This document shows, piece by piece, positions 2,540-39,268 of a DNA stretch of 56,047 nt. The stretch is from IMG/VR virus record IMGVR_UViG_3300032342_000007, positions 1 to 56,047 of that record; one strand, 5' to 3'. The notes under the pieces were generated by a model, which saw only the letters and a program-made list of their open reading frames with translations, was not told the DNA's origin and did no database searches. Positions within the stretch are counted from its first letter, which is position 1. The number at the start of each line of letters is the position of its first letter. Both the position numbers and the translations under genes were made by a program. Origin of the DNA: a virus.

Positions 2540-4396
2540 TCAGCTCTTGCTCGCCCAACTCGGACCCCCGCCGGTCTCCGCCGTAGCCGGTACCCGCTTC
2601 ATCATTGGGGCCATGCCTTCAATCATCGCTTCCTCGACCTGCTTCTGGACGTGCTTGGAGAACTCCGGGCCTTCGGCGCGATGCTGAACCACGTTCTCGT
2701 CGTGGACCATGTGAACCATGCCAACGCGCGCACCCTTCTCCAAGAGCACCTTGCCCCCGCTCATCGCCTTGCAGCGCTTGTAGACAAGGGGAAGGCTGTT
2801 CTTGAGACCGTCCGCGCCCGAGCCCTGCACAGGAGAGTTGAAGAACGCGTTGTGCTCCGTCTCCGGGTCCAAGAAGCGACGCCGACCCCAGATGGTCCAT
2901 GCCGCTTTCTGTCGCTTCGCGTCTCGAATCGCCTTGGTGTGCCAGTCCTCGACGCCGCTGTACGCCTCAAACCACTTGCGCCGGAACTTGATGGCCTGCC
3001 CTTCGGAGAGGGTCACGCCGTAGCCCGCGCGCGCGTAGAGCACCAGCTTGGGGGCCTGCATCCCGTAGATGAACCCGAAGTTGACCGGCTTCGCTTGTTG
3101 GCGTTGGTCCTTGGAGACCAGCGGCTGCTCGATGCCTGAGAGCAGAGAGGCGGTCACCCGGTGGGCATCGTCCTTGCCCGGCCCAGCGTTGAAAACCGCG
3201 ATGAGGCGCTTGTCCCCGCTGATTTCAGCGACCAGCCGCATCTCGATGTTCGAATAGTCGGCGATGGCCAGCTCGTAACCCTCACCCGCTACGAAGCAAG
3301 CGCGGAAGTCTTTGTCGCGGGGAATCTGCTGAAGGTTCGGCTTGGAAGACGAGTAGCGGCCTGCGCCAGTGAACGGCCAGAACTCGGTGTGGATGCGACC
3401 GGTCTTCGGGTTGACGTGGTTGAGGTACTTCGCACCGAATGATTTCACGCGCTGTGCGACACCTCGGTACTCGATGAACTTCTCGATGATGGGGTGAGAA
3501 GCGGCCAACATCGCCAGCGTCATCTCCTTGGTATCTTGCAGCTTGACGGTGTGGATCTGGTTCGACTCAGGGTCTCGAATTTTCTGCGTGACGCCCATCC
3601 GCCGCATCGACTCCAACACCTGCTCTGGTGAGTCGAGGTTGAAGCGATGCTTCCGTGAGGCGGCAATCATCCCCGGAAATACGAGCTGATTGAACGGGCT
3701 GGGAAGCTCCGCCAGAAGCAGCGCTTCGAGCGCGCGGGCGCGCCCGGCATTGGTGAGAGCGAGCTTCTTCCACTTCTCTTGATCGATTCCAAAACCGTTC
3801 AGCTCGATAGCCGCTTCCGGGAGAATGGCGTTGAACTCGATGACAGCGACGCGAACGAGGTTCTGCGCGATGAGCTTTGCGCGCAAGGAATCACGTAGCG
3901 CCGGAAGGTGCGTGATGTCCTCCGCCGCGTAGTCGATTTGGTCTTTCGTCAGCTCGGGAAGCGTCCAGTCCGAGCCACCCAATTCGGGGGCCTCGGGACC
4001 GATGTTCAGCTCGCGCCGATAGAGCGAGTACAGGTCGTGACCGACGTGCTTGTACCCGTTGTAGAGAAGGTTCGAGGCGCGGAAGGTGTCGAACACACGC
4101 TTCAGTTCGAGGTCGAAGTGCCAGAGAAGCCACTTCTGATCGAACTTGAGGTTCTGCCCGATGGTGAGGCCCGCCGTCTTGTCGAGCGCCTCAACGACCG
4201 GCCCCAGAGTGCCCGTCTTGAACAGGTCAATGACGTAGCGCCCTACCCCGGTGTTGATGGAGCAAAGGCGAACGAGCCCATCGCGGGGGTTCAACGCGGT
4301 GGTTTCAAGGTCGAGCGCGTGCCAAGGCTGCGCCTCTACCTCTCGGGCAATTCGCCCGAGCGCTTCAGCCGACGTGACGTAATCATAGCTAAGCAA
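2540..4396 (-). CDS. polA-like: Family A DNA polymerase with 3'-5' exonuclease
   Basis: Replicative-type phage DNA polymerase of 618 residues, lacking the 5'-3' exonuclease domain of bacterial Pol I. The proofreading domain shows ExoI D29-x-E31 (LDLETTALNP), ExoII around D86 (NLKFD) and ExoIII Y156-x3-D160 (YAAED). The polymerase domain shows motif A around D380 (IADYSNIEMR), motif B R432/K436 to Y444-G445 (RQQAKPVNFGFIYG) and motif C H565-D566-E567 (MVHDEN). All key residues are present, so it should be active. The start is TTG with GAGGGGG a few bases upstream. It follows the basic winged-helix protein in the same leftward unit. Confidence 0.96.
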   Translation of the reverse strand: MLSYDYVTSAEALGRIAREVEAQPWHALDLETTALNPRDGLVRLCSINTGVGRYVIDLFKTGTLGPVVEALDKTAGLTIGQNLKFDQKWLLWHFDLELKRVFDTFRASNLLYNGYKHVGHDLYSLYRRELNIGPEAPELGGSDWTLPELTKDQIDYAAEDITHLPALRDSLRAKLIAQNLVRVAVIEFNAILPEAAIELNGFGIDQEKWKKLALTNAGRARALEALLLAELPSPFNQLVFPGMIAASRKHRFNLDSPEQVLESMRRMGVTQKIRDPESNQIHTVKLQDTKEMTLAMLAASHPIIEKFIEYRGVAQRVKSFGAKYLNHVNPKTGRIHTEFWPFTGAGRYSSSKPNLQQIPRDKDFRACFVAGEGYELAIADYSNIEMRLVAEISGDKRLIAVFNAGPGKDDAHRVTASLLSGIEQPLVSKDQRQQAKPVNFGFIYGMQAPKLVLYARAGYGVTLSEGQAIKFRRKWFEAYSGVEDWHTKAIRDAKRQKAAWTIWGRRRFLDPETEHNAFFNSPVQGSGADGLKNSLPLVYKRCKAMSGGKVLLEKGARVGMVHMVHDENVVQHRAEGPEFSKHVQKQVEEAMIEGMAPMMKRVPATAETGGGPSWASKS

Positions 4397-6883: not shown

Positions 6884-9800
6884 CAGAGCCCCATCGGTTT
6901 GACGTACTTGTCGTAAATCTCTTGCGCCGGACCCGACACGACGACAACGAAGTCCTCGATAGGAACGCCATTGACCGAAAGGAAGTTCTGTTTGCGAGCC
7001 TCCTTGATGAGTTCCACGCGGTCACCCTCGTCTTGACACACAATCCGAAGAAGACGAGACGCATGAACCCCATTGAAAAAGTCGGTCTCGTTGGAGCTGG
7101 TCGCGCCTGTATGAGCGTTTCGATACTTGATGATCTCAGGCGTGGTCTGACGATCCTTCCATTGCGCCGAACCACTTCCTTTGCCGAACGAACCGTACGC
7201 ATCTCCCGGAAAACTCATCACGTCAAGGCGATCCAGCTCGTCCGCAGCAAGAATGTACTTGTAGCGACTCGACGTATTGCCCGCGTTGACCGAGGCGAAC
7301 AGGCTGCTAGAGGCGCTGTTGGTCGTAATCAAGCGCCACATGCCGGTCTGCGCCCCACCAGACGCGAGATCTTCGCTCACCGAATTACCGGCAGCGCCGC
7401 CGTGCTGCGAAGAGGCCGTGCCAGACAAGAGCCGTTGATTGATGCCCGACGGCCCACTGTCACGCAGCGCCTGAATGATAAACTTCGGAGTCTTGGCGGA
7501 GGTCTCAAGAAACTTCAGAATCGGCTCGCCATCTGAGCCTTTTGGAAACCCTCGCCAACGGTCTGGTACCACAAAGCTCTTGAGGCCCGGAGTCACCTCG
7601 GTTTCGACCGCCGAAAAGTATTCTGATGGAATCTTGAGGGGCACCTTCTTCGGGTTGCCGTTCATGTCTGTAGCGGGCTTCGGCTCAGAGCTGGAGTTAC
7701 CGGCGTAGTTGTGGGCGAAGGCGTTCTTCACCCTCTCCCGAAGCCCGCCCACTGTGAAATCCTCGGGCTTCAATTCTCGCTCTACGGCCGGAGCGGCGGA
7801 AAACAAGATTTGGTGGAGCTTCTGAATCTCATGATCTTCAGGCGTCGGCTCGTGCAACACCATGTCCCCGAGTCCCGACGACGCCTTGTCGAGAAGCTCT
7901 TTCAAAACGTCAGTGAGCTTCTCATCGGAACCGAGGTCCAGCTCCGCCACCATCTGACCAACAAGCGCGAAGTAGTGCTCATCAGTCACCATTCGGAGCT
8001 TGTGTTTGCCGGAAGTCCACTCGCGCGCTCCCACCTCCAGCGACTCCCCAGCGGTCTTGACGATGGAGTCCGACTCAGCATTGTAGCTACCAATCCAAAA
8101 GCTGTGCTCCGTGTGTTGGCCGGTGTTCGAAAGGGCCTGCCACCCAACCGCCTTGCCGTTCTTGTCTCGCGCGTCCTTTTTGATTTTGAAAGAGACCATC
8201 AGCTTGGTCACGCCTGCTGTGTCCGTCACTCGCTTGATGTTGAGAGTGCCGGTTGAGCCCCAGAGCGCTGGCCCGTCTGTGGGAAACGCTCTGCCGATAA
8301 GACCGAGCTTGGCGGTCTTGGCGTTGTTGATGTCCTTGAAGGACTGCGCGACAGGAAGCGCGGGGGCGTGCGACGGGAAGTAGGACGGCGTCCCTGAGTG
8401 TGGGGCGATTTTGTCGCCAGCGACCACCTCCTGTTCGATTTCGTCAGGAGTGATGGTCTCCTCTGTGGTGATAAAGGCGGCATCGAGGTCCGCCTTGGAC
8501 ACAGGCAAGAAGAACTTGAGCGTACCGTTCTCGGACTTCTTCTCGATGGCGGGACCGAGGGCTTTCAGATTGAACTTGGCGAGGAACGCCTCGACGGCGG
8601 GGAGCCCACCTTCTTTGTACTTGAGGGCTCGCTTCGTCTCGTCCTCGGTCTGCACTCCAGCCGCGTCCTTCACTTTCCACGGACGAATCTTGACGGGCGT
8701 AGAGCCGTTTTCGGAAGACGCGGCGAACTGCTCAGCGGTCGTCTTGATGGTCTTGATGTAGGGCACCGGCTTCGGGGGCTTCGGAGGAAGCGCGCCCGCC
8801 TCAACCCAACCGGTACTGAACATGAACCGACCGTTGGTCCCCGTCTTAACTCGAAGAGCTTCCGTCAGTGTCTGCTCGACTTTGAACTTCGTCGTGTTCT
8901 TGCGATTGATGGCGTCCTGAACGAAGGCGACCTGCATCATCTTGTTGCCGGGGTGAGTTGCTTCAGCCACCGGCCGCACCATCGTGTCGAAGTCCAGCGG
9001 GGAGATTTTGAAGAGGTCGTCGAAAACCCCACCAAGGTTCCCGGCTCCCTGCTGCTCGTTCACCAGCTTTTCCCAAATGGGGTCTGTGTCGGGCCGAACA
9101 ATCGGATCTGTTCCGGAAGGAATGATCCAGTCCAGAACGCCCTTTCTGGCGAGAGTGGCGTCGGTCAACGGACTCGGCGCGTAATTGGTCGCGACTTGGA
9201 GCGCCTTGAGCGCGGTGGCCGCCGCCGCCGCAATCTCTTCCGGCTTCGCCGGGAGCACCACCGTCGGTTCGGGAAAAGAAAACTCCTCGATGGGGGACGA
9301 AACTTGAGGTGCGGGAACGCTCGCAGAAACCGGAGTAGGCTGGGCACCCCAACCGCCGAGCGCCTTGAGCTTCTTCGCGACGTTCTTCACCCGCTTCAGC
9401 GCGGTGTCGTAGTCGGCTCCGGACTCCCACGCGTGCTGCGCCGCCGCGTCTTTGATGTTGTCCTTGTACGCTGCGAGATTCTTGAGCGCCTTGTAGTAGA
9501 CGCTGTTGGTCTTGATTCCGAGCGAGGCCGCGACCTGCTTGATGTTTGTGAACGACGGCGGCGTAAAACCCTCAGGCTTCGGTACGGAGAATTGACCGGG
9601 TTGCGGAGCAAGGGTAACCGGCTTCGGAACTTGGCCAGCAGCGTAGGCCGAGGCAGGTACGAACCCGACGACACCACCGCTCACGACAAACCCAGCAGCG
9701 ACAGCTCGTTTGATGAAATCCTTGACGCGAGTCCCCACCTCCTCGGCCGACAGGAAATTCATGTGCTTCAGCGCCATGTCTTGGAGCTGCACGTCGAGGG

Positions 9801-20537: not shown

Positions 20538-20701
20538 AGGTTCTCCAAGGTTGACTGCTCGAACGGATCTGACGAGCCACGAGTGTGCCCCGCCGGGCAC
20601 CGCCACACCCACTGCATCGGGAACGACAACAAGTGCTCCGGGTCCAGCTCCGCCTGCGCCGGAAGACCGCAAACGGCGCAAGGCGAAGCTTCGGGGGCTA
20701 C
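20534..20701 (-). CDS. Small zinc-ribbon frame lacking a normal start codon
   Basis: A frame of about 55 codons directly after RecA encodes CAVC and, later, CPAGH, a probable zinc ribbon, and its stop overlaps the next gene's ATG (ATGA) as real genes do here. No ATG, GTG or TTG occurs near its beginning. The codon that overlaps the RecA stop in the usual coupled position is GTA (gcGTAGcc), with GAGG just upstream. The nearest upstream in-frame start is a TTG at 20884, deep inside recA. It may use a non-standard start, be a decayed gene, or carry a sequence error. Confidence 0.4.
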   Translation of the reverse strand, partial: VAPEASPCAVCGLPAQAELDPEHLLSFPMQWVWRCPAGHTRGSSDPFEQSTLENL

Positions 20702-22212
20702 GCTACCTCGGTCGCCGGGGTCTCCACTGCCTCTTCCGGGACCGGTTGCAGCCCGAGGTCCTGCACCGGCTCGTTGATGAGCTTCAGGATGGTCTGCTTG
20801 ACCAGCCGGTAGAAGTCCGGGTCGAGCCTCATCCGCTTGTCGATGAGACCCTTCGAGTCGTAGCGGCCTCCGAGGCAGGTCCAATGCGAGCTTTCCTTGG
20901 TGATGATTCCGAGAGCCTGTGCTTCCGCCATCACGGCGTCTTCGTCAAGCACGTCACCCGTCTGCTTGGTGGTGCCGTCCACCATCGCCATCTTGAAGGA
21001 GTCGGTGCGCTTGGCCCCTCCCGCCTTGCTCTTCTCGATGTGGAAAGGGAACTCCACCTCGATGGGAATCGGGTGGTCCTCGTCGGTCTTGTCGAATTCC
21101 CAGACGCCGGGCTTCATCTTCATCTCGACCGAAGCCGCAAAACCGGGAGCCATGCCGCCCGGCTGGACCTCGGGGTTGCCGAACATCACACCGATTTTCA
21201 TGCGGATCTGGTTCGTCAGGAAGACTGTCGGACGACGCTCGCTGTGGAGCCCAGCCATGTTGAGTCCCGAGACGAACTTGCGAACGCCTCTGTTGACGAT
21301 CTTGGCGTTCCCTCCCATCGTCTCCTTCTCAGTGGACTCCTCGATTTCCTTCGCGGGCGTAAGGAACGCGATGGAGTCGAGCGCGATGACATCGCAGTCT
21401 CCGGAACGAACCAGCGCATCACCGATGTCGAGGGACTGCTCAGCGTACTCCGGCACCGACAGCAGGAGCTTGTCGAGGTCGATGCCGTGCCGCAGCGCCC
21501 ACTTCTTGTCGAACGTGCCTTCCACGTCGATGAAGGCGCAGACCGCCTCGCGGTACTTCCGACAGCCGCACGTCGGTTTGATTTCTTCACCGAGAATCGG
21601 CACTCGAATCGTCGCGTGCTCGTCCTCAGGGTCGGGCTGCGTCTCGACGCGAAGCAGCTCCTTCCACTTGTCCCCGTGCGCGTACCAGCGCGCGACCGGC
21701 GCGGAGACCCACTCCTTCTTGGTCTTCTTTTCCGTCAGCGCGACCGCGTCCTCCGCCTTGACCTTCTTGCCCCGCTTCTTCGAGGCGATGACGGTGACCT
21801 CCCCCGTCGTCTCGTCGATGACTTCCGCGTCCTCGACTTCCACCTCGACGAGCTTGGCCCAATGCACGTACTCCCAACAGTTGGAGCACTGGTGCTGGGC
21901 TTCAGCGATGGTCTTGAACAGGAGCGTGGTCTTGCAGGACGACTTCATCCCGAAGATGACGTTGACGCGGCCCTGCGGCCAGCCGCCGCAGAGCGCCTTG
22001 TCCACCTGAAACACCCCGGAAGGGATGCGGAAGGCTTTGGCCACGCGCGCATCGGAGGCGCTGGTGAGGATGAGGTCGCCGTGCTTCTTCTTCAGCTTCT
22101 GAAAAAGCTCGGACGCCAACAGGTGCTGAATTCGCACCGGGTTGCGCTTCGCCGGAGTTTTCTTCTCGTCCTTCGGCTTCTCGTCCTTCTCGTCCTTGCT
22201 TTTTCGGGCCAT
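20698..22212 (-). CDS. recA/uvsX-like: RecA-type recombinase with zinc-ribbon insert and Cys P-loop
   Basis: 504 residues; strand-exchange ATPase. The P-loop is GMKSSCKTT (88-96), where the glycine before the catalytic lysine is C93. The catalytic glutamate lies in FIDVEG (E231), Walker B in VIALDS (275-280), and the L2/DNA-binding region NQIRMKIGVMFGNPE is almost identical to RecA. About 110 residues are inserted after the P-loop helix (109-224); the insert is Lys/Glu-rich and flanked by CSNC (109-112) and CGC (215-217), suggesting a zinc ribbon. The ATG with GAGGGA upstream is preferred to an earlier in-frame start that would overlap the upstream gene. Length exceeds ordinary RecA (about 350) because of the insert and extended ends. 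Confidence 0.9.
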   Translation of the reverse strand: MARKSKDEKDEKPKDEKKTPAKRNPVRIQHLLASELFQKLKKKHGDLILTSASDARVAKAFRIPSGVFQVDKALCGGWPQGRVNVIFGMKSSCKTTLLFKTIAEAQHQCSNCWEYVHWAKLVEVEVEDAEVIDETTGEVTVIASKKRGKKVKAEDAVALTEKKTKKEWVSAPVARWYAHGDKWKELLRVETQPDPEDEHATIRVPILGEEIKPTCGCRKYREAVCAFIDVEGTFDKKWALRHGIDLDKLLLSVPEYAEQSLDIGDALVRSGDCDVIALDSIAFLTPAKEIEESTEKETMGGNAKIVNRGVRKFVSGLNMAGLHSERRPTVFLTNQIRMKIGVMFGNPEVQPGGMAPGFAASVEMKMKPGVWEFDKTDEDHPIPIEVEFPFHIEKSKAGGAKRTDSFKMAMVDGTTKQTGDVLDEDAVMAEAQALGIITKESSHWTCLGGRYDSKGLIDKRMRLDPDFYRLVKQTILKLINEPVQDLGLQPVPEEAVETPATEVA

Positions 22213-22219
22213 TGTTCCC

Positions 22220-22645
22220 TCAGTACGGCGTGTTGGCCTTGCTCGCGGTCGCGGCTGCGCGAACGTCAGCGGACTCGGCTTTGACCTTCTGCTCAACGAA
22301 GTCCTTCGCGTACTGGAAGCAATCGTCGATCTCTTCCTTGTAGCAAGGGACCGTCAAGCCGATGTGGACACGCACCGACTCGAAGTTGCCGATGTTGATG
22401 GTGAGCCCCACCTCGGCATTCACTGTGGCGGGCTGCGTGACGTAGCGGTGGATCGCCAACGTCGCGTCCTCCTTCGTTTCCTGCGGTCCGGTCGGAATCC
22501 CGTGAGACAGATGCTGCCGGGTCACCAGCACGGTCGTGGGTACTTCCTTCGAGCTTTTCTCAGCAAGGAGCCGCTGCTCCCAGACCGACTCAGCCTTCGC
22601 GAGAATCATCAACACCTGCGCCAGCGCTTCTTCTGTCGTTGCCAT
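22220..22645 (-). CDS. Conserved-looking phage protein beside recA, 141 aa
   Basis: Helical N-terminus, then a beta part with LTINIGNFESVRVHIGLTVP and CYKEEIDDCF, and a helical C-terminus. The NIGNFESVRV type of strand pattern is familiar from small phage proteins of unknown role, but I cannot name the family. GAGGAA lies upstream of the ATG; recA starts eight bases after its stop, so the two are probably co-expressed. Confidence 0.65.
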   Translation of the reverse strand: MATTEEALAQVLMILAKAESVWEQRLLAEKSSKEVPTTVLVTRQHLSHGIPTGPQETKEDATLAIHRYVTQPATVNAEVGLTINIGNFESVRVHIGLTVPCYKEEIDDCFQYAKDFVEQKVKAESADVRAAATASKANTPY

Positions 22646-27052: not shown

Positions 27053-27283
27053 CTAGCAACTGGGGACCGGCTTGTCAAAGGTTCCGAACACCAGCTCGAC
27101 TTCGGTCTCGAACGGACCCTCCAATTCCAACTGGGCCTTGAACCTGTCGTGCTCGGACGCGGTGATCGCCAGCAGGACAGCACCGGCAGCGCTCCCCACG
27201 AACGTCACCCCCAACTCAAATCGGAACGTCCCATACGCGTCTTTTCGAAACCAAACCTCCTTCGCCAGCGCCTTGAGCCTCAC
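27053..27283 (-). CDS. Hypothetical protein, 76 aa
   Basis: Beta-rich (FRFELGVTFVGSAAGAVLLA, ELEGPFETEVELVFG). The GTG start overlaps the primase stop (GTGA). No domain recognised. Confidence 0.55.
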   Translation of the reverse strand: MRLKALAKEVWFRKDAYGTFRFELGVTFVGSAAGAVLLAITASEHDRFKAQLELEGPFETEVELVFGTFDKPVPSC

Positions 27284-28341
27284 GGCCGCACCCCCGGCGG
27301 ACCGATGAGTTCGTTCGCTTCGGTGGGCGTGAGGTCGTCCGGGTCGTCCCCGTCCCTCATGCTGACGATTTTGCACGGCAGGCGCTTGCTGATTTTCTCA
27401 CACCACGCCTCAGCCGCCTCCCGGCCCGGCTTGTCCCCATCAGGAACAATGACGACGCGGTTGAAGAAGCGCACCAGCTTTTCAAGCTGGAAGTCAGACA
27501 GGTGAGTGCCCATCACCGCACCAGTCGCGTAGCCATAGCTCTGAAGGCGCATCACGTCGAAGAAGCCCTCAGTCAAACAACCGACCCCAGTGCCGTTCTC
27601 GGTGAAGAACTGCTCGCCGTAGACGTAGTAGTCGCGCTTGAAACCTTTCGCGTGCATGTACTTCGGCGTCACGCCCTCGCGAAAGGCGCGACCGGAGTGG
27701 CCCACAAGCCGACCCTTGCAGTCTCGAATCGGAATGGTGATGCGCCCGAACTTGGCGTCCCAGCACACCTCCCACTTCTTCAAGACCTCAAGGGAAAAAC
27801 GCCGCTCGTTGACGAGGTAGTTCCGGATGCCTGCGGAACTGTGGTGTTCGATGGGGAGGAACTTTTCGATGAGTGTTTCCTCAGGAAGGATTCGCAAATC
27901 CTTCTCCGCCAGCCCCATCCCGAATGAGAGCTGGACGCCCTTGATACCCGCGACTTCCTTCTGGGGATCGAACACGGGCCGCGCACTCACCTGTTCGGGG
28001 TTCTGCAAGCGCTTACCCTGCGCCTCCAAGCGCTCACCCATCTGCTCGACCGTCATGCCATTGTGCGCGCTGACAAAGTCGAAGACCTCGCTCTGGTCTT
28101 CTCCGGAGCGCGCCTGAATCTTCCACAGCAACTCGGTGAGGCTGCCCTTGAAGTTGCAAGCGTGACAGGTGCAGCCGCTGTTGCCCTCTGAGATGGCAAC
28201 GCTGAACGACGGATGGTTGTCTACCAGCTTGGCGTGAGTCCAAGGCGCGAGTGGGCACGAGGAATAGATCCACTGCCCGCCCGGCTTGATTTTCGAGCAG
28301 CCGAGCTTCCGCAACATCACTTGGATGTGAGCGCTGTTCAT
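27280..28341 (-). CDS. DnaG-type primase (zinc-binding plus Toprim)
   Basis: 353 residues. The N-terminal zinc module has C29, C57, C59 and C62 with nearby histidines. The Toprim domain carries the catalytic glutamate in LTEGFFD (E258) and the metal site PDGDKPG (D301, D303), with DGDDPDD further on. It lies beside a separate DnaB-type helicase gene. The chosen ATG overlaps the upstream stop as TGATG. It synthesises RNA primers at the fork. Confidence 0.88.
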   Translation of the reverse strand: MNSAHIQVMLRKLGCSKIKPGGQWIYSSCPLAPWTHAKLVDNHPSFSVAISEGNSGCTCHACNFKGSLTELLWKIQARSGEDQSEVFDFVSAHNGMTVEQMGERLEAQGKRLQNPEQVSARPVFDPQKEVAGIKGVQLSFGMGLAEKDLRILPEETLIEKFLPIEHHSSAGIRNYLVNERRFSLEVLKKWEVCWDAKFGRITIPIRDCKGRLVGHSGRAFREGVTPKYMHAKGFKRDYYVYGEQFFTENGTGVGCLTEGFFDVMRLQSYGYATGAVMGTHLSDFQLEKLVRFFNRVVIVPDGDKPGREAAEAWCEKISKRLPCKIVSMRDGDDPDDLTPTEANELIGPPGVRP

Positions 28342-28673
28342 CAGTCCGCTCGCTTCTCTGCGGGCTTCTGGGGCGGCGGGGCAACCCACTGCCGAAACAT
28401 CGCGTCAAAGCGCTTGTTCTTCACCGAGCCCTCATTGGAGTGGTGGTTGTTCCGCTTCTTTCCGCTGCTGGTGAGCTTGATTTTTTCGGTGGGACCAAAC
28501 GCCGAATCGAGCGAGAGGTAGCCGTACTCCGCAAGACGACTGCGCGCGATGGCAAACGCGTTCAAGAACCGCTCCTTGTTCGGTCCTTTAAGCGTCAGGT
28601 AAATCGCATAGGTGGTGTGCTTCAACAACGGAGGGAGAGGAACAGCAGCCGGTGGTGGTCCGAAAAACAGCAC
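28341..28673 (-). CDS. Hypothetical protein, 110 aa
   Basis: Proline-rich N-terminus, a KERFLNAFAIARSRLAEYG helix, and a basic C-terminal tail with KKRNNHH and KNKRF. GTG start with AAGGAG upstream. Lies between primase and helicase and may be a primosome accessory; no domain recognised. Confidence 0.55.
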   Translation of the reverse strand: MLFFGPPPAAVPLPPLLKHTTYAIYLTLKGPNKERFLNAFAIARSRLAEYGYLSLDSAFGPTEKIKLTSSGKKRNNHHSNEGSVKNKRFDAMFRQWVAPPPQKPAEKRAD

Positions 28674-28682
28674 GGGAACTCC

Positions 28683-30023
28683 TTAGAAGGGAACGTCGGG
28701 GTTGGAGGAACCAAACGGATCTGGATTTGTGGAAGGAGCGGCGTCGCTGCCGCCCGGACTGCCGTCGCCGGTACCGGAGCCAGCGACTCGGGGCTTCTCG
28801 GAGAAGTCCATCGTGTCGAAGTCCCAGTTGCACTCGATTTCATCGGACTCGCCTTCGCGCACCTTGAGCCCTTTGAGCATCATCGTCTTCGCCCGCTTCA
28901 TCTCGTCGGTCTGGATGAGACCGTACATGAGATCCGCATTCCACCCCGCCACGTCGGTGAGCGCAACGGACTCGGCCTGCACCGTCTTGACCTGCCCGGC
29001 CTTCACGTCACGATTGAACTGCATCGTGACGATGATGGGCACCTTGCGCCGCTTGTTGATGCGCTTCAGCTCGTCGAAGACGTTGGCCGCGCGCTCGGTG
29101 CGCGTCAAGCCCGCGACCTTGAGCAGGTACGCACCGTCGAGCACCACGATGTCGGGCTTGGCTTCTTCGACGGCTGCGTCGAACGACTCCATCGAGAAGT
29201 CGAAGTCACCGCCGACAATCATGAAGTTCGGCGAATTCACGAACTCCGCAACGCCGTCGTAGAGCTTCTTCTCCATGAACACGCCGAGGCGGCCCTTGCG
29301 GAGAGCCCCATACGGGAGCTTGAGCTTGAGCGCGTACCAGCGGAGCGCGATGCGCGCCTTCGCCATTTCGGTGGTCGCGTACAGCACGCGGCAGGGGCGC
29401 TTGGTCACGCCGTCCAACTCGGTCATCTGCTGCTCCCACGCGCAGCCCGCGACCATCAGCGAGAGCCAAGTTTTCCCGATGCCAAGCCGCGCCACGAAGA
29501 GCACCAAGTCTTCGGGCCAGAAACCCATCGTCGCTTCGTTGACGGAGTCCCACGGCGACAGCACGCCGGTCAGGCCCTTCTTGATGCGCTCGTAGTAGTC
29601 GAGCACCTCGGGGCCGAGTCCGGGCAGACTCTCAATCAGCGTACCCGCGAGCTTCTCTTTGCGAAGCTCCGTCATCGCGTTTTCGAGAGTGCTCAGTCCC
29701 TTGCGCGGCTCGGTCTCGATTTGCTTCAGCAGCGTGCTGCAAGTCGCGTGAAGCAGCTTCGCGAGCTTGCGATCCATGATGCAGTCGATGAAGTAGTCAG
29801 AGGCTCCAGCGATGGAGTCATCGAGCGCGGTGCTGGTGGCGTGACAGACGATTTCAATCGGCGGAAGGTCGGGATGCTGCTTGGAGTAGTTGAGGATGAA
29901 CTCCCACGCGGCGCGGCCTTCACCGGCCATGTGTTCGAGCGTGATGCCTCGGGCGAGCGCCTTCCGGAGCCCCGGTCGTCCTTCTCGCAGCACCGCGACG
30001 ATGAAGCCCTTGTCGAAGTCCAT
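28683..30023 (-). CDS. dnaB-like: DnaB-type replicative helicase
   Basis: 446 residues. A short helical N-terminal domain (1-100) precedes the RecA-like motor: Walker A RLGIGKTWL (about 179-187), Walker B IVVLDGAYLL, and MQFNRD as the polar motif after it. The C-terminus is a long Gly/Ser/Asp-rich tail ending NPDVPF, resembling an SSB tip and unusual for DnaB. Neighbours are the loader, a paralogue of the initiator C-terminus and the primase, giving a complete primosome set. Confidence 0.9.
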   Translation of the reverse strand: MDFDKGFIVAVLREGRPGLRKALARGITLEHMAGEGRAAWEFILNYSKQHPDLPPIEIVCHATSTALDDSIAGASDYFIDCIMDRKLAKLLHATCSTLLKQIETEPRKGLSTLENAMTELRKEKLAGTLIESLPGLGPEVLDYYERIKKGLTGVLSPWDSVNEATMGFWPEDLVLFVARLGIGKTWLSLMVAGCAWEQQMTELDGVTKRPCRVLYATTEMAKARIALRWYALKLKLPYGALRKGRLGVFMEKKLYDGVAEFVNSPNFMIVGGDFDFSMESFDAAVEEAKPDIVVLDGAYLLKVAGLTRTERAANVFDELKRINKRRKVPIIVTMQFNRDVKAGQVKTVQAESVALTDVAGWNADLMYGLIQTDEMKRAKTMMLKGLKVREGESDEIECNWDFDTMDFSEKPRVAGSGTGDGSPGGSDAAPSTNPDPFGSSNPDVPF

Positions 30024-30024
30024 C

Positions 30025-30621
30025 TCAGCCTCCCTTCTTGAAGCTCAGTGGAACGCGGGCCATCAATTCGGCAGGGGGAGAAGTCTGATCAGGGTGGTCC
30101 TTGAACCATTGCATCAGCTCCGCGACCGCCGGGTGTTGTTCGACTTCGATTTTCGGCTGCTGCGCTTCCGGCATCAGCGTCTCCGCCATCACGAAGAGCC
30201 AGCCGACGGTGGGCACGATGGGCGACTTGGGGAACCGCTCCCGGATGCTGCCCCAGTTTCCGAAGACGTGCCGGAAGTACAACTCGACGAGCGACGCCGA
30301 GTATTTCTGGATGAGCTTGACGGTGAGCCCGACTTCCTTCCCGCCCTTCGGTTTTCCGTCCTCCATCACGAACCAGCGCGCGGTCACCAGCCCCGGATGG
30401 TAGGCCGCCATCAGCTCCTCCCAGACCACTTCGAGCTGACGCACCGAGCCTCGCGGAACATGCCGCTGCGGCCCCGGTCCCTTCAAATTCTTCGCGAACT
30501 GCGCTTTCTTCTGGCGCGCCGCAGTCTTCACGTCGTTCCGTTCGCGTTGAGCTTTGCCTCGCGCTTGAGCGCCTTTCACCAACAGCTCCAGCGCCGTTTT
30601 CCGCTCCGAGTCCGCGCTCAC
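30025..30621 (-). CDS. Primosome accessory related to initiator C-terminus, 198 aa
   Basis: A basic, Gln/Lys/Arg-rich N-terminus leads to a domain (about 65-185) that aligns by eye with the C-terminal domain of the initiator-like protein at 31376-32692: VVWEELMAAYHP versus QVWRAEMAKHYP, FGNWGSIRERFPKSP versus IANWKSLVKRYEKSP, and a shared LMPEAQ. This suggests duplication. GTG start overlaps the loader stop (GTGA). It may help couple helicase and initiator. Confidence 0.6.
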   Translation of the reverse strand: MSADSERKTALELLVKGAQARGKAQRERNDVKTAARQKKAQFAKNLKGPGPQRHVPRGSVRQLEVVWEELMAAYHPGLVTARWFVMEDGKPKGGKEVGLTVKLIQKYSASLVELYFRHVFGNWGSIRERFPKSPIVPTVGWLFVMAETLMPEAQQPKIEVEQHPAVAELMQWFKDHPDQTSPPAELMARVPLSFKKGG

Positions 30622-31379
30622 GGTGAACCCTTCTCGAAGATTTTGGTGCGATTCGATTTCATCTCTGCGACGCGACGGTTGTCACCCGTGATTGGAATCT
30701 CGTAGAGCACGCGACCAACCTGCTCGTGCCACGCAAGCTGAATCGCACCCAGCTCGACGAACGTCAGGATGGAAGTGAAAAAAGTGGGACGCTTCGCAGC
30801 CGCGCGGTCGATGACCAGCGACTTCCAGTTGAAAAAAGAATCCGAAAAATCGGTCGGGTCGATGTCGTCGATGATGAGAACCTTCGCTCGACGAATCAGA
30901 GTCTCGACGAGGCCGCAGTCACCGAACTCTCGGTGAAAGCGAACCGCATCACGCAGGTCGCTCGCACGCGTAAAGTAGATGCTCCGGTCGGTGAGGTGCC
31001 CGTACCAGCCCTCGTTGAGGAGCTTCGCGGGGATTTCCTTCCCTCGCGCATCGAGCTTCAGTGGCTTCAGCTCCCCCGTTTCGTCAAGTTCGCGTTCTTC
31101 GAAGCGACGCAAGCCCGCCTTCGCGAGCTGAATCGCGGCGGTGGTCTTCCCAACTCCAGCTTGGCCGGAGAACCAGTAGCCCAGCCCCTGCCAAACGAAC
31201 TCGGTCTGGTGCTTCAGGTAGTTCCCGACCGCGAGCAGCGCGTCGGGCGTGCAGTCGGAGAGCTTGCAGTCCCAGATGTTCGCCGGGGTGTTGAACACCG
31301 CCTGCGCGTCCGCCCCCGACAGGGGCCACTTCGGTCTCGTCGGTCCTTCGGCGAGATCCGCTTCGTCCACTTCGCTCAT
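30618..31379 (-). CDS. dnaC-like: AAA+ helicase loader, DnaC-like
   Basis: 253 residues. Walker A SGQAGVGKTT (71-80) and Walker B KVLIIDDID (D171-D172) with a short ASDLRDAVRFHREFG stretch between, as in DnaC/IstB-type loaders. A long insert (about 95-130) separates the P-loop from the next strand. Downstream of the initiator (ATGA overlap) and upstream of the helicase. Expected to place DnaB at the origin. Confidence 0.85.
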   Translation of the reverse strand: MSEVDEADLAEGPTRPKWPLSGADAQAVFNTPANIWDCKLSDCTPDALLAVGNYLKHQTEFVWQGLGYWFSGQAGVGKTTAAIQLAKAGLRRFEERELDETGELKPLKLDARGKEIPAKLLNEGWYGHLTDRSIYFTRASDLRDAVRFHREFGDCGLVETLIRRAKVLIIDDIDPTDFSDSFFNWKSLVIDRAAAKRPTFFTSILTFVELGAIQLAWHEQVGRVLYEIPITGDNRRVAEMKSNRTKIFEKGSP

Positions 31380-32692
31380 AGCTTGTCCCCCTTCAACTTC
31401 GGCGCGCGGAACACCTCTTGCGCGAGTTCCGGCGGAAGAAGCTCACCGGGGTTCGCGCGCTGCCACGCGGCTACGCGGTCCTTCAACGCCTGCACCTGCT
31501 GGGCTGGAGTCACAGCCCCCTCGACGCCCTGCGCCTCCGGCATCAGGTCCTTGACCTTCCACTCTGCCTGAAGCGTGTTCGGCGTCGCCGGAAAGTTCGG
31601 GCTCTTCTCGTAGCGCTTCACCAGCGACTTCCAGTTCGCGATGACCCATCGGGCGTACACGAGCGTCGCCTCCAGCCCGTAGTCGTCCATCAGGGAAAGA
31701 ACGTTTTTCGCCTCGCAGCTTTTCGACGGCTCCGCCAGCAACCCGTCCTTGCCGACGGTCAGCCACTGCTTGTGCCCGAGCGGGACCTTTGGGTAGTGCT
31801 TCGCCATCTCAGCCCGCCAGACCTGCTCGACCTTGGCGACGGCGTTCAGGCGGTCCTGTTGGGCCGCTGTGCGGGCTTTGGCTTCAAGAGGGGTCACGGC
31901 GGGGGTCTCCTTCGAAAGTGGCTCCACGGCCCGCACAGGCGGCGGAGGGGGGCTCCCGGAACCGGGGGAGGGTCGGTCGGTCGGCCGGTCGGCCGAGCGG
32001 TCGGTCGGCTGGTCGTCGGTCGGTCGGTCGAGTCGTGTCGGTCGGGCGGCTTCCGACGCTTTTGGAACGGCCGCGAGACGCAGTGTTGGAGAGAGGCTGT
32101 TCCCCCTCTCTTCAAAGAGATTTTTGTTCTCTTCAGACCTGTTCTCTTCATTATCGGCAAATTTTGCCGGGGTAAGGCCGGAAATATTTGCCGGGGTAAG
32201 GCCGGAAATATTTGCCGGGGTGGGATATGTCGTACCCCGGCAATCGTTGCCGGGGTTACCGGGGTCAGAATTGCCGGGGTGGTCAGGAGTAGTCCAAGGA
32301 AAACCGTGCGCTTCCATACGCAGTTGCGCGCGTGACTCGGAGGCGTCCGTCGCACGCACATGGTCGGCGCGGCGGCGCGCTTTGGCCTCCTTCGCGGCCC
32401 ACTCCACGGTTCTGAGCTGCCAAACGTGCTCCAGAAGCCAGTACCGGGACGACTTTCCGTGCCGGTGTTCGACCCGCAAGAGCTTCTCTTTTTCGAAGAA
32501 GCGGACCGCTGACCGGACCGTGCGCACGCTGAGGGTCACCTCGCGCGCGATGGTGTGGATGCTGGCCCACGCGAACTGGTTCTTGCCCACGTTGCGCAGA
32601 ATTTCGGCGTAGACCAGCTTCTGCGCGGGCGTGAGTTCCGGCGTCACCTTCAGCCAGACGGTGTTGACCGAAAAGCCCGAGGCGAAGCTCAT
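31376..32692 (-). CDS. Replication initiator-like protein with winged helix and internal iterons
   Basis: 438 residues. The N-terminus (about 18-85) is a winged helix: LTPAQKLVYAEILR, then SIHTIAREVTLSVRTVRSAV and a wing KLLRVEHR. The middle (130-260) is low complexity: GLTPANIS repeats, then PTD/RPTD repeats and prolines. The C-terminal domain (270-400) is shared with the 198-residue protein downstream. The DNA encoding GLTPANIS carries the iterons of the candidate origin, as in lambda gene O. An ATGA overlap couples it to a small upstream basic peptide. Confidence 0.75.
   Translation of the reverse strand: MSFASGFSVNTVWLKVTPELTPAQKLVYAEILRNVGKNQFAWASIHTIAREVTLSVRTVRSAVRFFEKEKLLRVEHRHGKSSRYWLLEHVWQLRTVEWAAKEAKARRRADHVRATDASESRAQLRMEAHGFPWTTPDHPGNSDPGNPGNDCRGTTYPTPANISGLTPANISGLTPAKFADNEENRSEENKNLFEERGNSLSPTLRLAAVPKASEAARPTRLDRPTDDQPTDRSADRPTDRPSPGSGSPPPPPVRAVEPLSKETPAVTPLEAKARTAAQQDRLNAVAKVEQVWRAEMAKHYPKVPLGHKQWLTVGKDGLLAEPSKSCEAKNVLSLMDDYGLEATLVYARWVIANWKSLVKRYEKSPNFPATPNTLQAEWKVKDLMPEAQGVEGAVTPAQQVQALKDRVAAWQRANPGELLPPELAQEVFRAPKLKGDKL
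31972..32050. repeat. GGTC-rich low-complexity tract
   Basis: About 80 bases built from cggt/ggtc tetramers inside the initiator-like gene, encoding RPTD-like repeats. Variation in repeat number would shift the linker length. A DNA-level function is possible since it lies close to the iterons. Confidence 0.6.
32105..32281. other. Candidate replication origin: iterons beside an AT-rich element
   Basis: Iteron core TTGCCGGGGT occurs at 32164, 32188, 32212, 32247 and 32271, once inverted at 32234-32243 and partially at 32258-32265. The first three are 24 bases apart, within an exact 24-base repeat containing GGAAATATT. A palindrome CGGCAAA-T-TTTGCCG lies at 32155-32169. Bases 32105-32162 are markedly AT-rich in otherwise GC-rich DNA, like an unwinding element. 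The cluster lies in the initiator-like gene beside loader and helicase genes, as in lambda. An origin role is inferred, not shown. Confidence 0.65.
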
Positions 32693-32802
32693 CGAGCCAC
32701 CAACGAATTCAAGGTGCGCCTACGGCGAAGTTCTGGCCACCGGAAGCTGTTGCGTTGCTCCCTCAGGAACGAAGGAGTTGATCCCTCTCGTTTCCCGGCC
32801 AT
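32689..32802 (-). CDS. Short basic peptide before the initiator, 37 aa
   Basis: Arg-rich peptide (RWPELRRRRTLNSLVAR) whose stop overlaps the initiator ATG (ATGA). GGGGGA lies eight bases before its ATG. It could be a coupled leader peptide. The longer in-frame extension upstream reads through repeats and looks non-coding. Confidence 0.35.
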   Translation of the reverse strand: MAGKREGSTPSFLREQRNSFRWPELRRRRTLNSLVAR

Positions 32803-32946
32803 GCGCGGTCCCCCAGCTCCAGAGATTCTTCTGACCGCGCCGCGTGCGCAGAAAAAAGCGGGCGGATCTGGGTTCGCCGTCCCAGCAGAGGTCGGGAGCT
32901 GCACCCTCGCTGAAAACCCCAGATCCACCCTAGACCAGAAAGTGAC

Positions 32947-33156
32947 ATGTCGATCTTGGCTCCCAATCCGTTTGACATCGTTCCGGCGAGGAACGAGGCG
33001 GCGGACTTCTACGCCCGCATCCGCGAAGCCGTCAAGAGCTTCGCGCGCGCTACCGAAAGCGTCGCGAGTTGGAGTTTTCCACAGCCCAACTCTCGTCGAG
33101 AAACGAACGGATCTTGCTTCGTTTCCCACAGGCTGACGCATCGCCTCTCCCTCTAA
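32947..33156 (+). CDS. Possible small rightward gene, 69 aa
   Basis: The first about 43 codons have the genome's coding style and encode MSILAPNPFDIVPARNEA followed by an amphipathic helix. The remainder runs across the DnaA-box-like repeats and looks less protein-like. No good ribosome-binding site. It could be a remnant or a true short gene facing the leftward replication genes. Confidence 0.3.
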   Translation: MSILAPNPFDIVPARNEAADFYARIREAVKSFARATESVASWSFPQPNSRRETNGSCFVSHRLTHRLSL

Positions 33157-33185
33157 CGAAAAACTTCTCCACAGGTTTCCCACAG
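33075..33185. repeat. DnaA-box-like cluster in a gene-poor stretch
   Basis: Four same-direction repeats of type TTNYCCACAG: ttttccacag (33075), tttcccacag (33122), ttctccacag (33165) and tttcccacag (33176). They differ by one or two bases from the DnaA box TTATCCACA. They lie in 32803-33249, the longest stretch without a convincing gene, upstream of the initiator operon. A weak promoter candidate (TTGACG, 18 bases, TAGAAG; 33035-33006, leftward) lies nearby. Probably part of origin or replication control. Confidence 0.5.
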
Positions 33186-33249
33186 CCTCTTGCGGACGCA
33201 CCTCTCCCAGCACGGCGACCGCCGCGCCGATTCCCCCGGCGGCGCGCGG

Positions 33250-33514: not shown

Positions 33515-35449
33515 CTAGTTGTTGCGCAGATACTTCGTGAAGCTGGAGGCGACGATCTGCACGAGCCCCTCCCCCAGTCTTTCGGTTTTCATTCGACGCC
33601 AGTTGGCAGGCGCTCCCAGCATGAAAGAGAGCTGCGAGTCCTTCATCTCATCCCCGATGATGATGCCGGTCACACTCATTCCCGAGCGGCGGGCGTGGCG
33701 AATTTCGCTGCGCGCGTGAGTCAGCAGTGACTGGGTCGAGAATCGGTTGATGGTTCGAGTCGCGTGCGTCGGTGCGCCATCAGTGATGAGGATGAGGTGC
33801 TTCGCCTCGTTGCCCTGCTCCATGAAGCGCACCGCCACACGAAGCGCCAAGTGCAGCGGAGTCGCGCCCGCGACCTTCGCTTCATCCGAAGAGAAGTTCA
33901 GGCGTCCGGGCCGGAATCGAGAGATGTCGATCTCGCCCATTTTGAGCGATTGGAATCCCCAGACATGGAAATCCACGAAAGGGAACAGCAGCGAAGCTTC
34001 CAGCGTTCGACACGCGCGCTCCGCCTGCTCACTCTTCGCGCCTCCCATCGAACCAGAGCGATCCAGCAACACGAGCGCCTTGAAGCCGCGCCCGCTCTGC
34101 TCGGTCCGGAAACACGGCACCGACTGGCGCGAGACCAAGCCCTCGATGTACGCCGACACGTCGATTTCGCTGCCGGAGTCGTGGAGCGTGTACCGCCGCC
34201 GACCCAACACCCGGTAGAAGACCGAGCGCAGGCGCTGGACTGAACCGCGATCTTCCAAAGCGGGCATCTCACTCTTGCGCACGCCAACGTCCTTCAAGTT
34301 CACCTTGCCGTAGGCGTTCTTGCTGATCCACCCGTCGTGCTCCATCTGCTGGCCGAGCGTTTTCATCGCGCGCTCGACAACCTCAGCCATCTTCGTTCCG
34401 GAAGAGGCGAGGAACTCCTCCAGCTTTCCGGCGTCCTTGGTGTCCAGCGTCGAAACGAAGTCGGCAACCTTCTGACCCTTCTCCCGCTCTTCTTTCGTCG
34501 GGTACTTGGTCGGCTTCACGTCATCGCGCCACGAGTAGAGCGCGGAGGGGCAGCCCATCACTTCGAGCAGCTTTTCGAACGCCCTTGAGCGTGCTCCCGC
34601 GTCTTTCAGGACCGCACGGTCTTCGGGCGGTGGAGCTTCCTCGGGGGTCGTCGAGGTCCGATTCTTCAGCCGCTGGAGCGCCTGCGCGGCGAGGCTCTGG
34701 GTCTGCGGGTTCTGCGGCGCTCGGCGGGGCTGGGCTATCTCAGAGACGAACTGCTGCATGAGCCACTTGGAAACCGCCAGCGTCGCAGCGAAGCCCCGGC
34801 GCTCCACCTTCAGCAACGCCTCTTCCATCGCCGGGCGCAGGTAGTCGTACGGCCCCGTCGGAGGCTCGACCTTCGCCGAGACGACGCACAGGTACGTCGA
34901 GGGGCAGAGGTGCGCGCGCCCGATGAACTTCAGCACCATGTGCTTGTGCATGGCCTGCATCTCGATGAAAGAGCCCGGATACAACAGCGCCCAGAGCGAC
35001 TCGACGCGCGCGTCTTCGAGGATGCCGATGATGACCGAGAGCAGCTCTTTGAGATGATCCGCGTGGTGGTCCTCCAGCGCCTGACCTTGCAGCGCGAACG
35101 ACTTCTTCACCTGCTCGACGTAGAGCCGGATGAACGCGACCTTCCCCTCGATGCTTGACTGGAAAAGGATGTGGGCCAGCTCGTGTTCGACGATGCGGTA
35201 GAAGAACGGGTTCTTGAACGGCGCGAGAATCTCGTGGCCGTCGGTGCTCGGGAAGTTGCCTTCCTTCAGCCACAGCTTTCGCTGCGCGAGCCCTGCGAAG
35301 GTTGCGACCGTTTTGTACGCGGCTCCCCGAACATCTTCCTCTCGCCCCCGCTGGTAGAGCGAGTTGAGGTCGATGGTTCGGTTCGGATCAAAGATGGACC
35401 TCTCCAGCTCGACGGCTTCCGCCCCCTCCACCACCTCGAAGTTGCTCAT
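33515..35449 (-). CDS. VWA-domain protein with HExxH motif (CobT-like)
   Basis: 644 residues. An HExxH motif, H89-ELA-H93, is followed about 50 residues later by ILEDARVE, as in CobT-like and related metallopeptidase-type proteins. The C-terminal VWA domain has the MIDAS motif DRSGSMGG (about residue 465) with later T and D positions in LITDGAP. VWA proteins of this kind act with MoxR/CobS-type AAA+ ATPases as metal-insertion or remodelling chaperones; the ATPase is encoded immediately upstream with an ATGA overlap. The phage substrate is unknown. Confidence 0.8.
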   Translation of the reverse strand: MSNFEVVEGAEAVELERSIFDPNRTIDLNSLYQRGREEDVRGAAYKTVATFAGLAQRKLWLKEGNFPSTDGHEILAPFKNPFFYRIVEHELAHILFQSSIEGKVAFIRLYVEQVKKSFALQGQALEDHHADHLKELLSVIIGILEDARVESLWALLYPGSFIEMQAMHKHMVLKFIGRAHLCPSTYLCVVSAKVEPPTGPYDYLRPAMEEALLKVERRGFAATLAVSKWLMQQFVSEIAQPRRAPQNPQTQSLAAQALQRLKNRTSTTPEEAPPPEDRAVLKDAGARSRAFEKLLEVMGCPSALYSWRDDVKPTKYPTKEEREKGQKVADFVSTLDTKDAGKLEEFLASSGTKMAEVVERAMKTLGQQMEHDGWISKNAYGKVNLKDVGVRKSEMPALEDRGSVQRLRSVFYRVLGRRRYTLHDSGSEIDVSAYIEGLVSRQSVPCFRTEQSGRGFKALVLLDRSGSMGGAKSEQAERACRTLEASLLFPFVDFHVWGFQSLKMGEIDISRFRPGRLNFSSDEAKVAGATPLHLALRVAVRFMEQGNEAKHLILITDGAPTHATRTINRFSTQSLLTHARSEIRHARRSGMSVTGIIIGDEMKDSQLSFMLGAPANWRRMKTERLGEGLVQIVASSFTKYLRNN

Positions 35450-36306
35450 GCAATCGCGCCCTCAGAAACCTTGAGGCCGAAGATGCTCGTGATGCGCGCC
35501 TTCACCGTGTCGCGGTCATCGCCGTCGAATTTTCCGATGAGAATGCGCAAGGCCCTCGGAAGACCGACTGACGCGATGTCTTCGATGGCTTGCTGAACGT
35601 CTCGCGGCGAGAGCGCGTACTCCATCGCCTTCTGCCGCGTCTCGATGGCGAGCTGGAGCACGCGGTCCAGCGTCTTCGGCTCCAGCTTCTTCAGCAGCTC
35701 CGCGTCCACCACCTCGGTCAGGATGGCCTTCTCCTGCGCCGGGTTGGGGTACTCCAGTGCGAGCAGACGGAAGCGACTCTTCAAGTCCTCGTTCAGCGCA
35801 TAGACGCCGCCGTACACCGCCGTGTTCATCGTGCCGACGAACCAGAGCTTCGCGCCTGCGTTCAGCTTGAAGACCTTCTGGCACTCCGGCACCTCGATGC
35901 GCCGCCGGAAGTCAGCCAACCCGTTGAGCACCTTCTGCATCTGCGGCGACAGGCCGTTGATTTCCTCCAGCACGAGGATGCACTGGCCCACTTCGTTGGC
36001 GATTTCAAAGGCCGTGGTCAGCGGCCCCAGCACGAATGGTGTCTCGCCACCACGCAGCAGATGATGCCCAATCAGGTGGCTGCGCCGCACGTCTTCCGAG
36101 CAGTCGAACGTGATGATGGGGCACTTCTTCAGCGCGGCGAAGGTTTGGAACGAGAGCGTCTTGCCGATGCCCTTCGGGCCAACCAGCACGAGGTTCGAAC
36201 GGAACATCAACCCCTCGTAGAGGCCGTGTAACCCGAAGACATCGACGAACTTCAGCCCCTCCCTCGGCGCGTATTCCTCCGTGGGAATTCGCTCAACGCT
36301 ACTCAC
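35446..36306 (-). CDS. MoxR/CobS-type AAA+ ATPase
   Basis: 286 residues. Walker A GPKGIGKT (43-50), Walker B CILVLEEING (about 109-118), a sensor-like GTMNTA and an arginine in LKSRFRLLAL match the MoxR/CobS clade. The GTG start overlaps the stop of the gene before it (GTGA) and its own stop overlaps the VWA gene (ATGA), giving a fixed three-gene set. Together they probably form an ATP-driven remodelling complex. Confidence 0.85.
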   Translation of the reverse strand: MSSVERIPTEEYAPREGLKFVDVFGLHGLYEGLMFRSNLVLVGPKGIGKTLSFQTFAALKKCPIITFDCSEDVRRSHLIGHHLLRGGETPFVLGPLTTAFEIANEVGQCILVLEEINGLSPQMQKVLNGLADFRRRIEVPECQKVFKLNAGAKLWFVGTMNTAVYGGVYALNEDLKSRFRLLALEYPNPAQEKAILTEVVDAELLKKLEPKTLDRVLQLAIETRQKAMEYALSPRDVQQAIEDIASVGLPRALRILIGKFDGDDRDTVKARITSIFGLKVSEGAIA

Positions 36307-38731: not shown

Positions 38732-39268
38732 ATGAAGCGCGCAATCTCTCTGGTCCTCGTGGTCGCTTTGTCCGGCGGCTGCGCGACGGTTCCTGCCCTC
38801 GCGCCGACGGTCGCCATCAACGTCGAGAAGCGGGTCGAAAGCCGCCCCTTGCCGCCCGACCCCTCCACGGAGGCCCTGCCGCCCGGTACGCCTGCCGACG
38901 ACTGGGTCCTGCCCTTGGAGGCGGGTTCGTGCCTCGACAAGGCCGGAAAGGCCGTTTCCGGCGCTGTGGGACCGTGTCCCAGCCTCAGCGGCATCTCCCT
39001 GAGCGAGTCTCGGGCCGCCCGAGCCAAGCTCTTCCAGATTCGCTACCCCGAACTGCGTCGCCTGTACGAGGCGGACCGTATGGTCTGGTCCGCGCACCGG
39101 GAGCTGTACGAAGAGCGCCTTCAGCAGGCCGACCAGAAGATTCGGGACATGCAGCCCAACTGGTTCGAGCGGCACGCGGTTCAACTTGGTGTGGTTGGAG
39201 GGTTCGTTCTCGGGGCCGCCCTGACGGTGAGCCTGACGTACGCGATTCACCAAACCACCAAGCCGTAG
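38732..39268 (+). CDS. Lipoprotein with C-terminal TM, possible unimolecular spanin
   Basis: 178 residues. A short signal sequence ends in an ALSGGC lipobox (Cys17; slightly atypical at -3), then a proline-rich stretch, two further cysteines, a helical middle (about 85-145, RRLYEADRMVWSAHRELYEE) and a C-terminal transmembrane helix (about 150-171, LGVVGGFVLGAALTVSLTY). An outer-membrane anchor plus an inner-membrane anchor in one chain is the unimolecular spanin layout, used to fuse outer and inner membranes at lysis. AGGGGG precedes the ATG. Confidence 0.55.
   Translation: MKRAISLVLVVALSGGCATVPALAPTVAINVEKRVESRPLPPDPSTEALPPGTPADDWVLPLEAGSCLDKAGKAVSGAVGPCPSLSGISLSESRAARAKLFQIRYPELRRLYEADRMVWSAHRELYEERLQQADQKIRDMQPNWFERHAVQLGVVGGFVLGAALTVSLTYAIHQTTKP

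Follow-up and report, generated by a model that had tools for sequence, protein, structure and literature searches.

Described origins within initiator genes

The closest described systems are replication origins that lie inside the gene of their own initiator. In the lambda record, iterons are located at 39034, 39054, 39078 and 39101 inside O, with spacings of 20, 24 and 23, and work on Stx phages describes an origin built alike, whose iterons are occupied by O dimers (PMC7466680). In the plasmid pSK41, four Rep boxes are found at the centre of rep and the origin-encoded central region forms a linker, while in pPR9 the N-terminal domain and the origin have been replaced en bloc by a phage-type PF13730 (HTH_36) domain (PMC5703833). 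Cultured Pseudomonas phages also have O-like initiators; in TC7, for example, the gene contains six copies of ACCCCCGCAG, 17-23 bp apart, and a ‘replication P family’ gene lies next to it.

Here we analysed one entire virus record of 56,047 bases (the window), in which 32103-32280 is very probably the phage replication origin, consisting of an iteron array and an unwinding element that both fall within the initiator's own coding sequence. We infer this function from the repeats, their conservation at the DNA level, the relatives and the low GC content next to the array. By analogy, the 438-aa initiator and its array would work like lambda ori in O and the origins of pSK41 and pPR9. As in the lambdoid ori, dyad iterons are placed 20-24 bp apart in mid-gene, after the DNA-binding N-terminus and ahead of the C-terminus, an AT-rich unwinding region lies on the 3' side of the iterons, and the loader gene comes next. 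Unlike in lambda, the loader is an AAA+ DnaC/IstB-like protein, helicase and primase are phage-encoded, and the iteron sequence is different.

An earlier sequence-only reading of this DNA had proposed that the layout mirrors lambda ori within O. This is borne out by the architecture rather than by sequence homology of the whole protein, which matched neither PF04492 (Phage_rep_O) nor, in a profile comparison, lambda O. In a control, lambda O itself matched PF04492 at 5.7e-36, whereas the window protein matched HTH_36 instead. Given this strong control match, the window initiator is not to be filed in the lambda O family. For its C-terminal domain, hhalign against lambda O gave a probability of 0.5% (a single lambda sequence being a weak target), and no fold match was found. 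The initiator shares the Pfam family PF13730 (HTH_36) with pPR9. Unlike pSK41, the window is a phage and not a plasmid, and no relation was detected between the two C-terminal domains; the window protein gave no RepA_N (PF06970) match at E-values up to 1, and the families listed for its 20 relatives do not include RepA_N either. The N-terminal domain is ~32% identical to that of the TC7 initiator over 83 aa, but the C-terminal domain is unmatched there, the TC7 gene is shorter and its repeats are different.

The initiator gene and its neighbourhood

The initiator gene (31376-32692; this and all genes, domains and iterons below, as well as the AT-rich block and the leader, are on the minus strand, unless stated otherwise) encodes 438 aa, with a winged-helix N-terminal domain, a linker predicted to be disordered that contains the putative origin DNA, and a helical C-terminal domain. 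Its match to Pfam HTH_36 bears out the earlier proposal that a winged-helix gene hosts the array. The protein also matches several PHROG ‘replication initiation O-like’ families. The N-terminal domain aligns with PHROG 391 and 678 (O-like) and with the related initiator families 270 and 186 at E-values from 3e-10 to 3e-6, and matches to these PHROG initiator families extend to as many as 10 of 20 relatives.

As had also been anticipated from the sequence, loader and helicase genes are found close by. The initiator is followed by an AAA+ helicase loader of the DnaC/IstB type (253 aa; 30618-31379), a 198-aa protein (30025-30621), a DnaB-like replicative helicase (28683-30023) and a DnaG-type primase with a Toprim domain (27280-28389). 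Immediately upstream of the replication genes, the window encodes a pair of proteins comprising an AAA_5 ATPase and a VWA-domain protein (33515-36306); comparable AAA_5/VWA pairs stand ahead of the initiator in two other loci, L004 and L005.

The iteron array and the AT-rich block

Exact copies of TTGCCGGGGT are found on the plus strand at 32164, 32188, 32212, 32247 and 32271, and on the minus strand at 32234, with a near copy carrying one mismatch at 32256. The five direct copies and the one inverted copy are those of the sequence-only reading, as is the exact 24-base spacing of three of them (32164, 32188, 32212); the successive spacings of the direct copies are 24, 24, 35 and 24. All six exact copies fall within 117 bp, and the sole exact copy in the 56 kb outside the array is located at 8945. 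Among the other 10-mers of the window, none has even four non-overlapping copies per 130 nt.

The array unit is the dyad CGGCA-N5-TGCCG. In coding direction, iteron 1 (32271-32280) is only a half-site, ACCCCGGCAA, and is read as HPGN. Iteron 2 (32234-32256) is a perfect 23-bp palindrome, ACCCCGGCAA-CGA-TTGCCGGGGT, formed by the 32234/32247 pair and read as NPGNDCRG. Iterons 3 (32203-32221; read as TPANIS) and 4 (32179-32197) are both ACCCCGGCAAATATTTCCG, while iteron 5 (32155-32173) is ACCCCGGCAAAATTTGCCG, with the dyad CGGCAAAATTTGCCG. The latter adjoins an AT-rich, purine-biased stretch with three GAAGAGA repeats (32103-32154), a candidate DNA unwinding element that is kept in a close relative (L001). 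In line with the AT-rich block of the earlier reading, the 50 bp past the array have a GC content of 38% vs a gene mean of 64%, which places them in the lowest 1.3% of the gene's windows. The array lies ~410 nt into the coding sequence, between the regions encoding the DNA-binding and C-terminal domains. Just beyond the AT-rich block, the linker region also contains a GGTC-rich, microsatellite-like tract (31971-32049) of period 4 with ~20 copies, which is shorter in L001.

Conservation as DNA

As the iterons lie in a coding sequence, they are also translated, and the sequence-only reading had noted as its main doubt that they encode a GLTPANIS repeat. Three tandem in-frame TPAN(I/K) units are indeed present. 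On the coding strand, three tandem copies of ACCCCGGCAA translate as (T)PAN or (T)PAK, and the repeats might be a protein-level feature, a repeated TPANISGL linker, to which the DNA repeat would be secondary. In line with such an explanation, shuffles that preserve the protein gave 6 copies per 130 nt once in 2000, while codon shuffling of the gene gave this density in 0/2000 (maximum 4). However, in another frame ACCCCGGCAA is read as HPGN and NPGN, and the inverted copy translates as CRGT; one and the same 10-mer thus occupies two reading frames as well as both orientations.

A close comparison is offered by L001, which shows 71% best-segment identity and in which the iterons and the AT block are kept. 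Where a residue is unchanged between the two phages, its codon is also the same in 55 of 59 cases in the iterons and AT block; the N-terminal domain has 44 such codons out of 83 (Fisher p=1e-7), and the C-terminal domain 97 out of 126 (p=0.007). The contrast is seen at four-fold sites as well. Between the iteron cores, L001 has changed ATATTTCCGG to GGTGCCG, and the dyad CGGCA-N5-TGCCG is retained. The linker encoded by the origin is predicted to be disordered, with pLDDT values mostly below 50 from residue 133 to 266. The iteron repeats are conserved as DNA and not merely as protein.

We therefore rejected a protein repeat as the cause of the array and consider it extremely improbable. The objection fails because of the differing frames and orientations, the frozen synonymous sites and the 23-nt period of the relatives described below, which is unable to encode a repeated peptide. 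In the window, the spacing of 24 nt yields the peptide repeat TPANISGL as a by-product.

A 23-nt period in related initiators

Searching with the helicase turned up distant relatives, and 32 viral loci were identified with four aligned helicases. Using an HMM of the initiator C-terminal domain, we obtained 22 distinct initiators, all from uncultured phages, with diverse N-terminal domains. Upstream of the region for the C-terminal domain, self-matches are most frequent at a 23-nt offset, which 13 of these 22 genes show, compared with a mean of 0.08 and a maximum of 1 in the codon-shuffle control, and 8 genes have a second peak at 46 nt. None of 139 other long ORFs from the same loci shows 23-nt self-matches. 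When matches at 22, 24 and 33 nt are added, L022 is the sole initiator that lacks an array; the signal is weak in L013, L018, L023 and L026. A survey of exact 9-mers missed most arrays, which were recovered by mismatch-tolerant and periodicity tests.

The motifs mostly differ between phages, for example GGACAGATTTGTCC (L024), GTACACCTGCGTGTAC (L031), TGTTCCCAAAAGGGAACA (L027) and GGGAGCGAAAACGCTCCC (L021), and by eye most of them are unrelated. Likeness is seen between the motifs of L019 and L024, and among those of L010, L011 and L013. As 23 cannot be divided by 3, each copy falls into another frame than the one before it. Moreover, as the motif sequences are largely different, the period is not explained by common descent of one repeat, even if the relatives lack statistical independence. 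Of 14 phage arrays examined, 11 have significant dyad symmetry (p<=0.015), as does lambda; the arrays of L019, L025 and L029 are the three without significant dyads. Across the relatives, the 50 bp after the last iteron rank among the GC-poorest windows of the gene (median rank 1.8%), and in most cases their coding strand is rich in purines (median rank 4.5%). Judging from these comparisons, about twenty related phages appear to have the same layout, mostly with another repeat sequence.

The N-terminal domain as iteron reader

The N-terminal winged-helix domain (residues about 12-90; 32423-32659; Pfam HTH_36 E=6.6e-7) is the predicted iteron reader. Its model, with pLDDT values of 75-93 across most of residues 21-90, is a general winged helix. 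The best fold match has a Z-score of 9.8, and 4pt7, ‘Structure of initiator’, reaches 8.8; as the matches are tied with CRP and others, they do not single out a family. Two structures of initiator/Rep with DNA, 4pt7 and 5kbj, are within the fold list. Sequence searches of solved structures with the N-terminal domains of the initiator and of two relatives returned nothing useful.

Only two relatives carry a recognition helix of the form RETxxR, namely L009 (RETVNR) and L018 (RETINR); this helix contains the residues with which E. coli CRP contacts TGTGA. In the L009 gene, TGTGA/TCACA occurs 15 times vs 1.9 expected (0/500 shuffles), and in the L018 gene 4 times vs 1.2 expected (p=0.026). No other member combines this helix with an enrichment of TGTGA. 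The pairing of the RETxxR helix with TGTGA-type repeats, which was noticed post hoc and concerns two loci, supports the N-terminal domain as the iteron reader.

The C-terminal domain and its paralogue

The helical C-terminal domain (residues 268-438; 31379-31891) is conserved across all 22 initiators, as judged by HMM and alignment, and its model has a pLDDT of 81. It is predicted to recruit the loader or helicase. The 198-aa protein between loader and helicase is a stand-alone paralogue of this domain (blastp E=1e-9, 31% over 106 columns, with HMM agreement) and is present in L001 too. The C-terminal domain has no PHROG match, and comparison of its fold with the PDB and BFVD gave no convincing match, the best viral probabilities being 0.94, 0.84 and 0.80, all with E>0.2.

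We tentatively suggest, at somewhat less than even chances, that the DNA-binding domain and its origin form a self-contained cassette in one gene, whose sequence turns over or is exchanged from phage to phage, with the loader-recruiting C-terminal domain, the position of the array and the 23-24 nt register remaining constant. The recognition helix would then predict the iteron half-site, and the C-terminal domain, which is additionally encoded on its own, would represent an undescribed fold that recruits helicase or loader.

Initiation and the upstream region

In the proposed mechanism, initiator dimers would bind the dyad iterons via the N-terminal winged helix and wrap the DNA, and the adjacent purine-biased, AT-rich stretch would melt. 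The C-terminal domain, perhaps together with the stand-alone paralogue, may recruit the AAA+ loader, which would place the phage's own DnaB-like helicase, and then the primase. The origin-encoded peptide would serve as a disordered linker. Cumulative skew had been put forward as a check of the origin but gives it no support: neither GC nor TA skew has an inflection at the array (block-shuffle p=0.24), and the extremes lie at other places. The iteron-type origin embedded in the initiator gene, as first read from the sequence, is nevertheless supported by the repeats, the frozen synonymous sites and the relatives with 23-nt periods.

Upstream of the initiator, a non-coding leader (32741-32980) is 90-98% identical to L001, whereas its surroundings are mostly 60-83% identical. 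In it, a U run comes after a long hairpin (32859-32930), with modest folding z-scores of -1.5 to -2.8, and the leader thereby resembles an intrinsic terminator of the upstream operon. The leader is probably the upstream operon's end combined with the start of the replication operon. An Rfam scan gave no family reaching the gathering score.

The gene that holds the array is the first of this replication operon, downstream of the leader and its terminator-like hairpin, and winged-helix folds resemble CRP/MarR regulators. The iterons might thus mainly act as an operator, through which the initiator represses or pauses transcription of its own operon while replication begins elsewhere. We consider this very unlikely, as the array is placed ~410 nt inside the coding sequence and not at a promoter, is consistently followed by an AT-rich stretch, and has a layout that equals the proven origins of lambda and pSK41. 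Autoregulation could nevertheless exist alongside origin function.

Four DnaA-box-like 9-mers lie within 110 bp (33075-33184), 400-500 bp upstream of the initiator start: TTTTCCACA at 33075, TTTCCCACA at 33122 and 33176, and TTCTCCACA at 33165. L001 shares three of these sites, placed in conserved islands, which would fit a true origin in the upstream non-coding region (32741-33190) with the iterons as auxiliary elements. Yet the strict consensus TTWTNCACA is matched by one site only, and none of 17 other initiator loci has a strict site from 900 nt upstream of the start to 1.4 kb into the gene; the intragenic array, unlike these sites, is lineage-wide. Such an upstream origin is therefore very unlikely, and DnaA boxes as a lineage-wide second origin were rejected, as strict sites are absent from the other loci. 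Part of the origin could still be located at the upstream DnaA-box-like sites of the window, next to the intragenic array that we favour.

Implications and further observations

The window thus appears to carry a known kind of origin, with unusually good comparative support. In the cellular genomes that were scanned, we found no relative of the helicase and no member of the lineage. With it, a lineage of uncultured phages joins the small set of intragenic iteron origins and adds some twenty putative initiator/iteron pairs. Because each gene carries its own target site, the co-change of winged-helix initiators and their sites becomes testable, as does the tolerance of a coding sequence for an origin. 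A 23-nt period inside an O-like gene may also serve as a practical origin marker for uncultured phages.

Elsewhere in the window, a family A DNA polymerase with a 3'-5' exonuclease domain is encoded at 2540-4396, much of the replication machinery thus being phage-encoded. A RecA/UvsX-like protein (20698-22296) is hit by the RecA profile in two stretches and has an insertion of ~115 residues past the Walker A region, with CxxC and CxC motifs.
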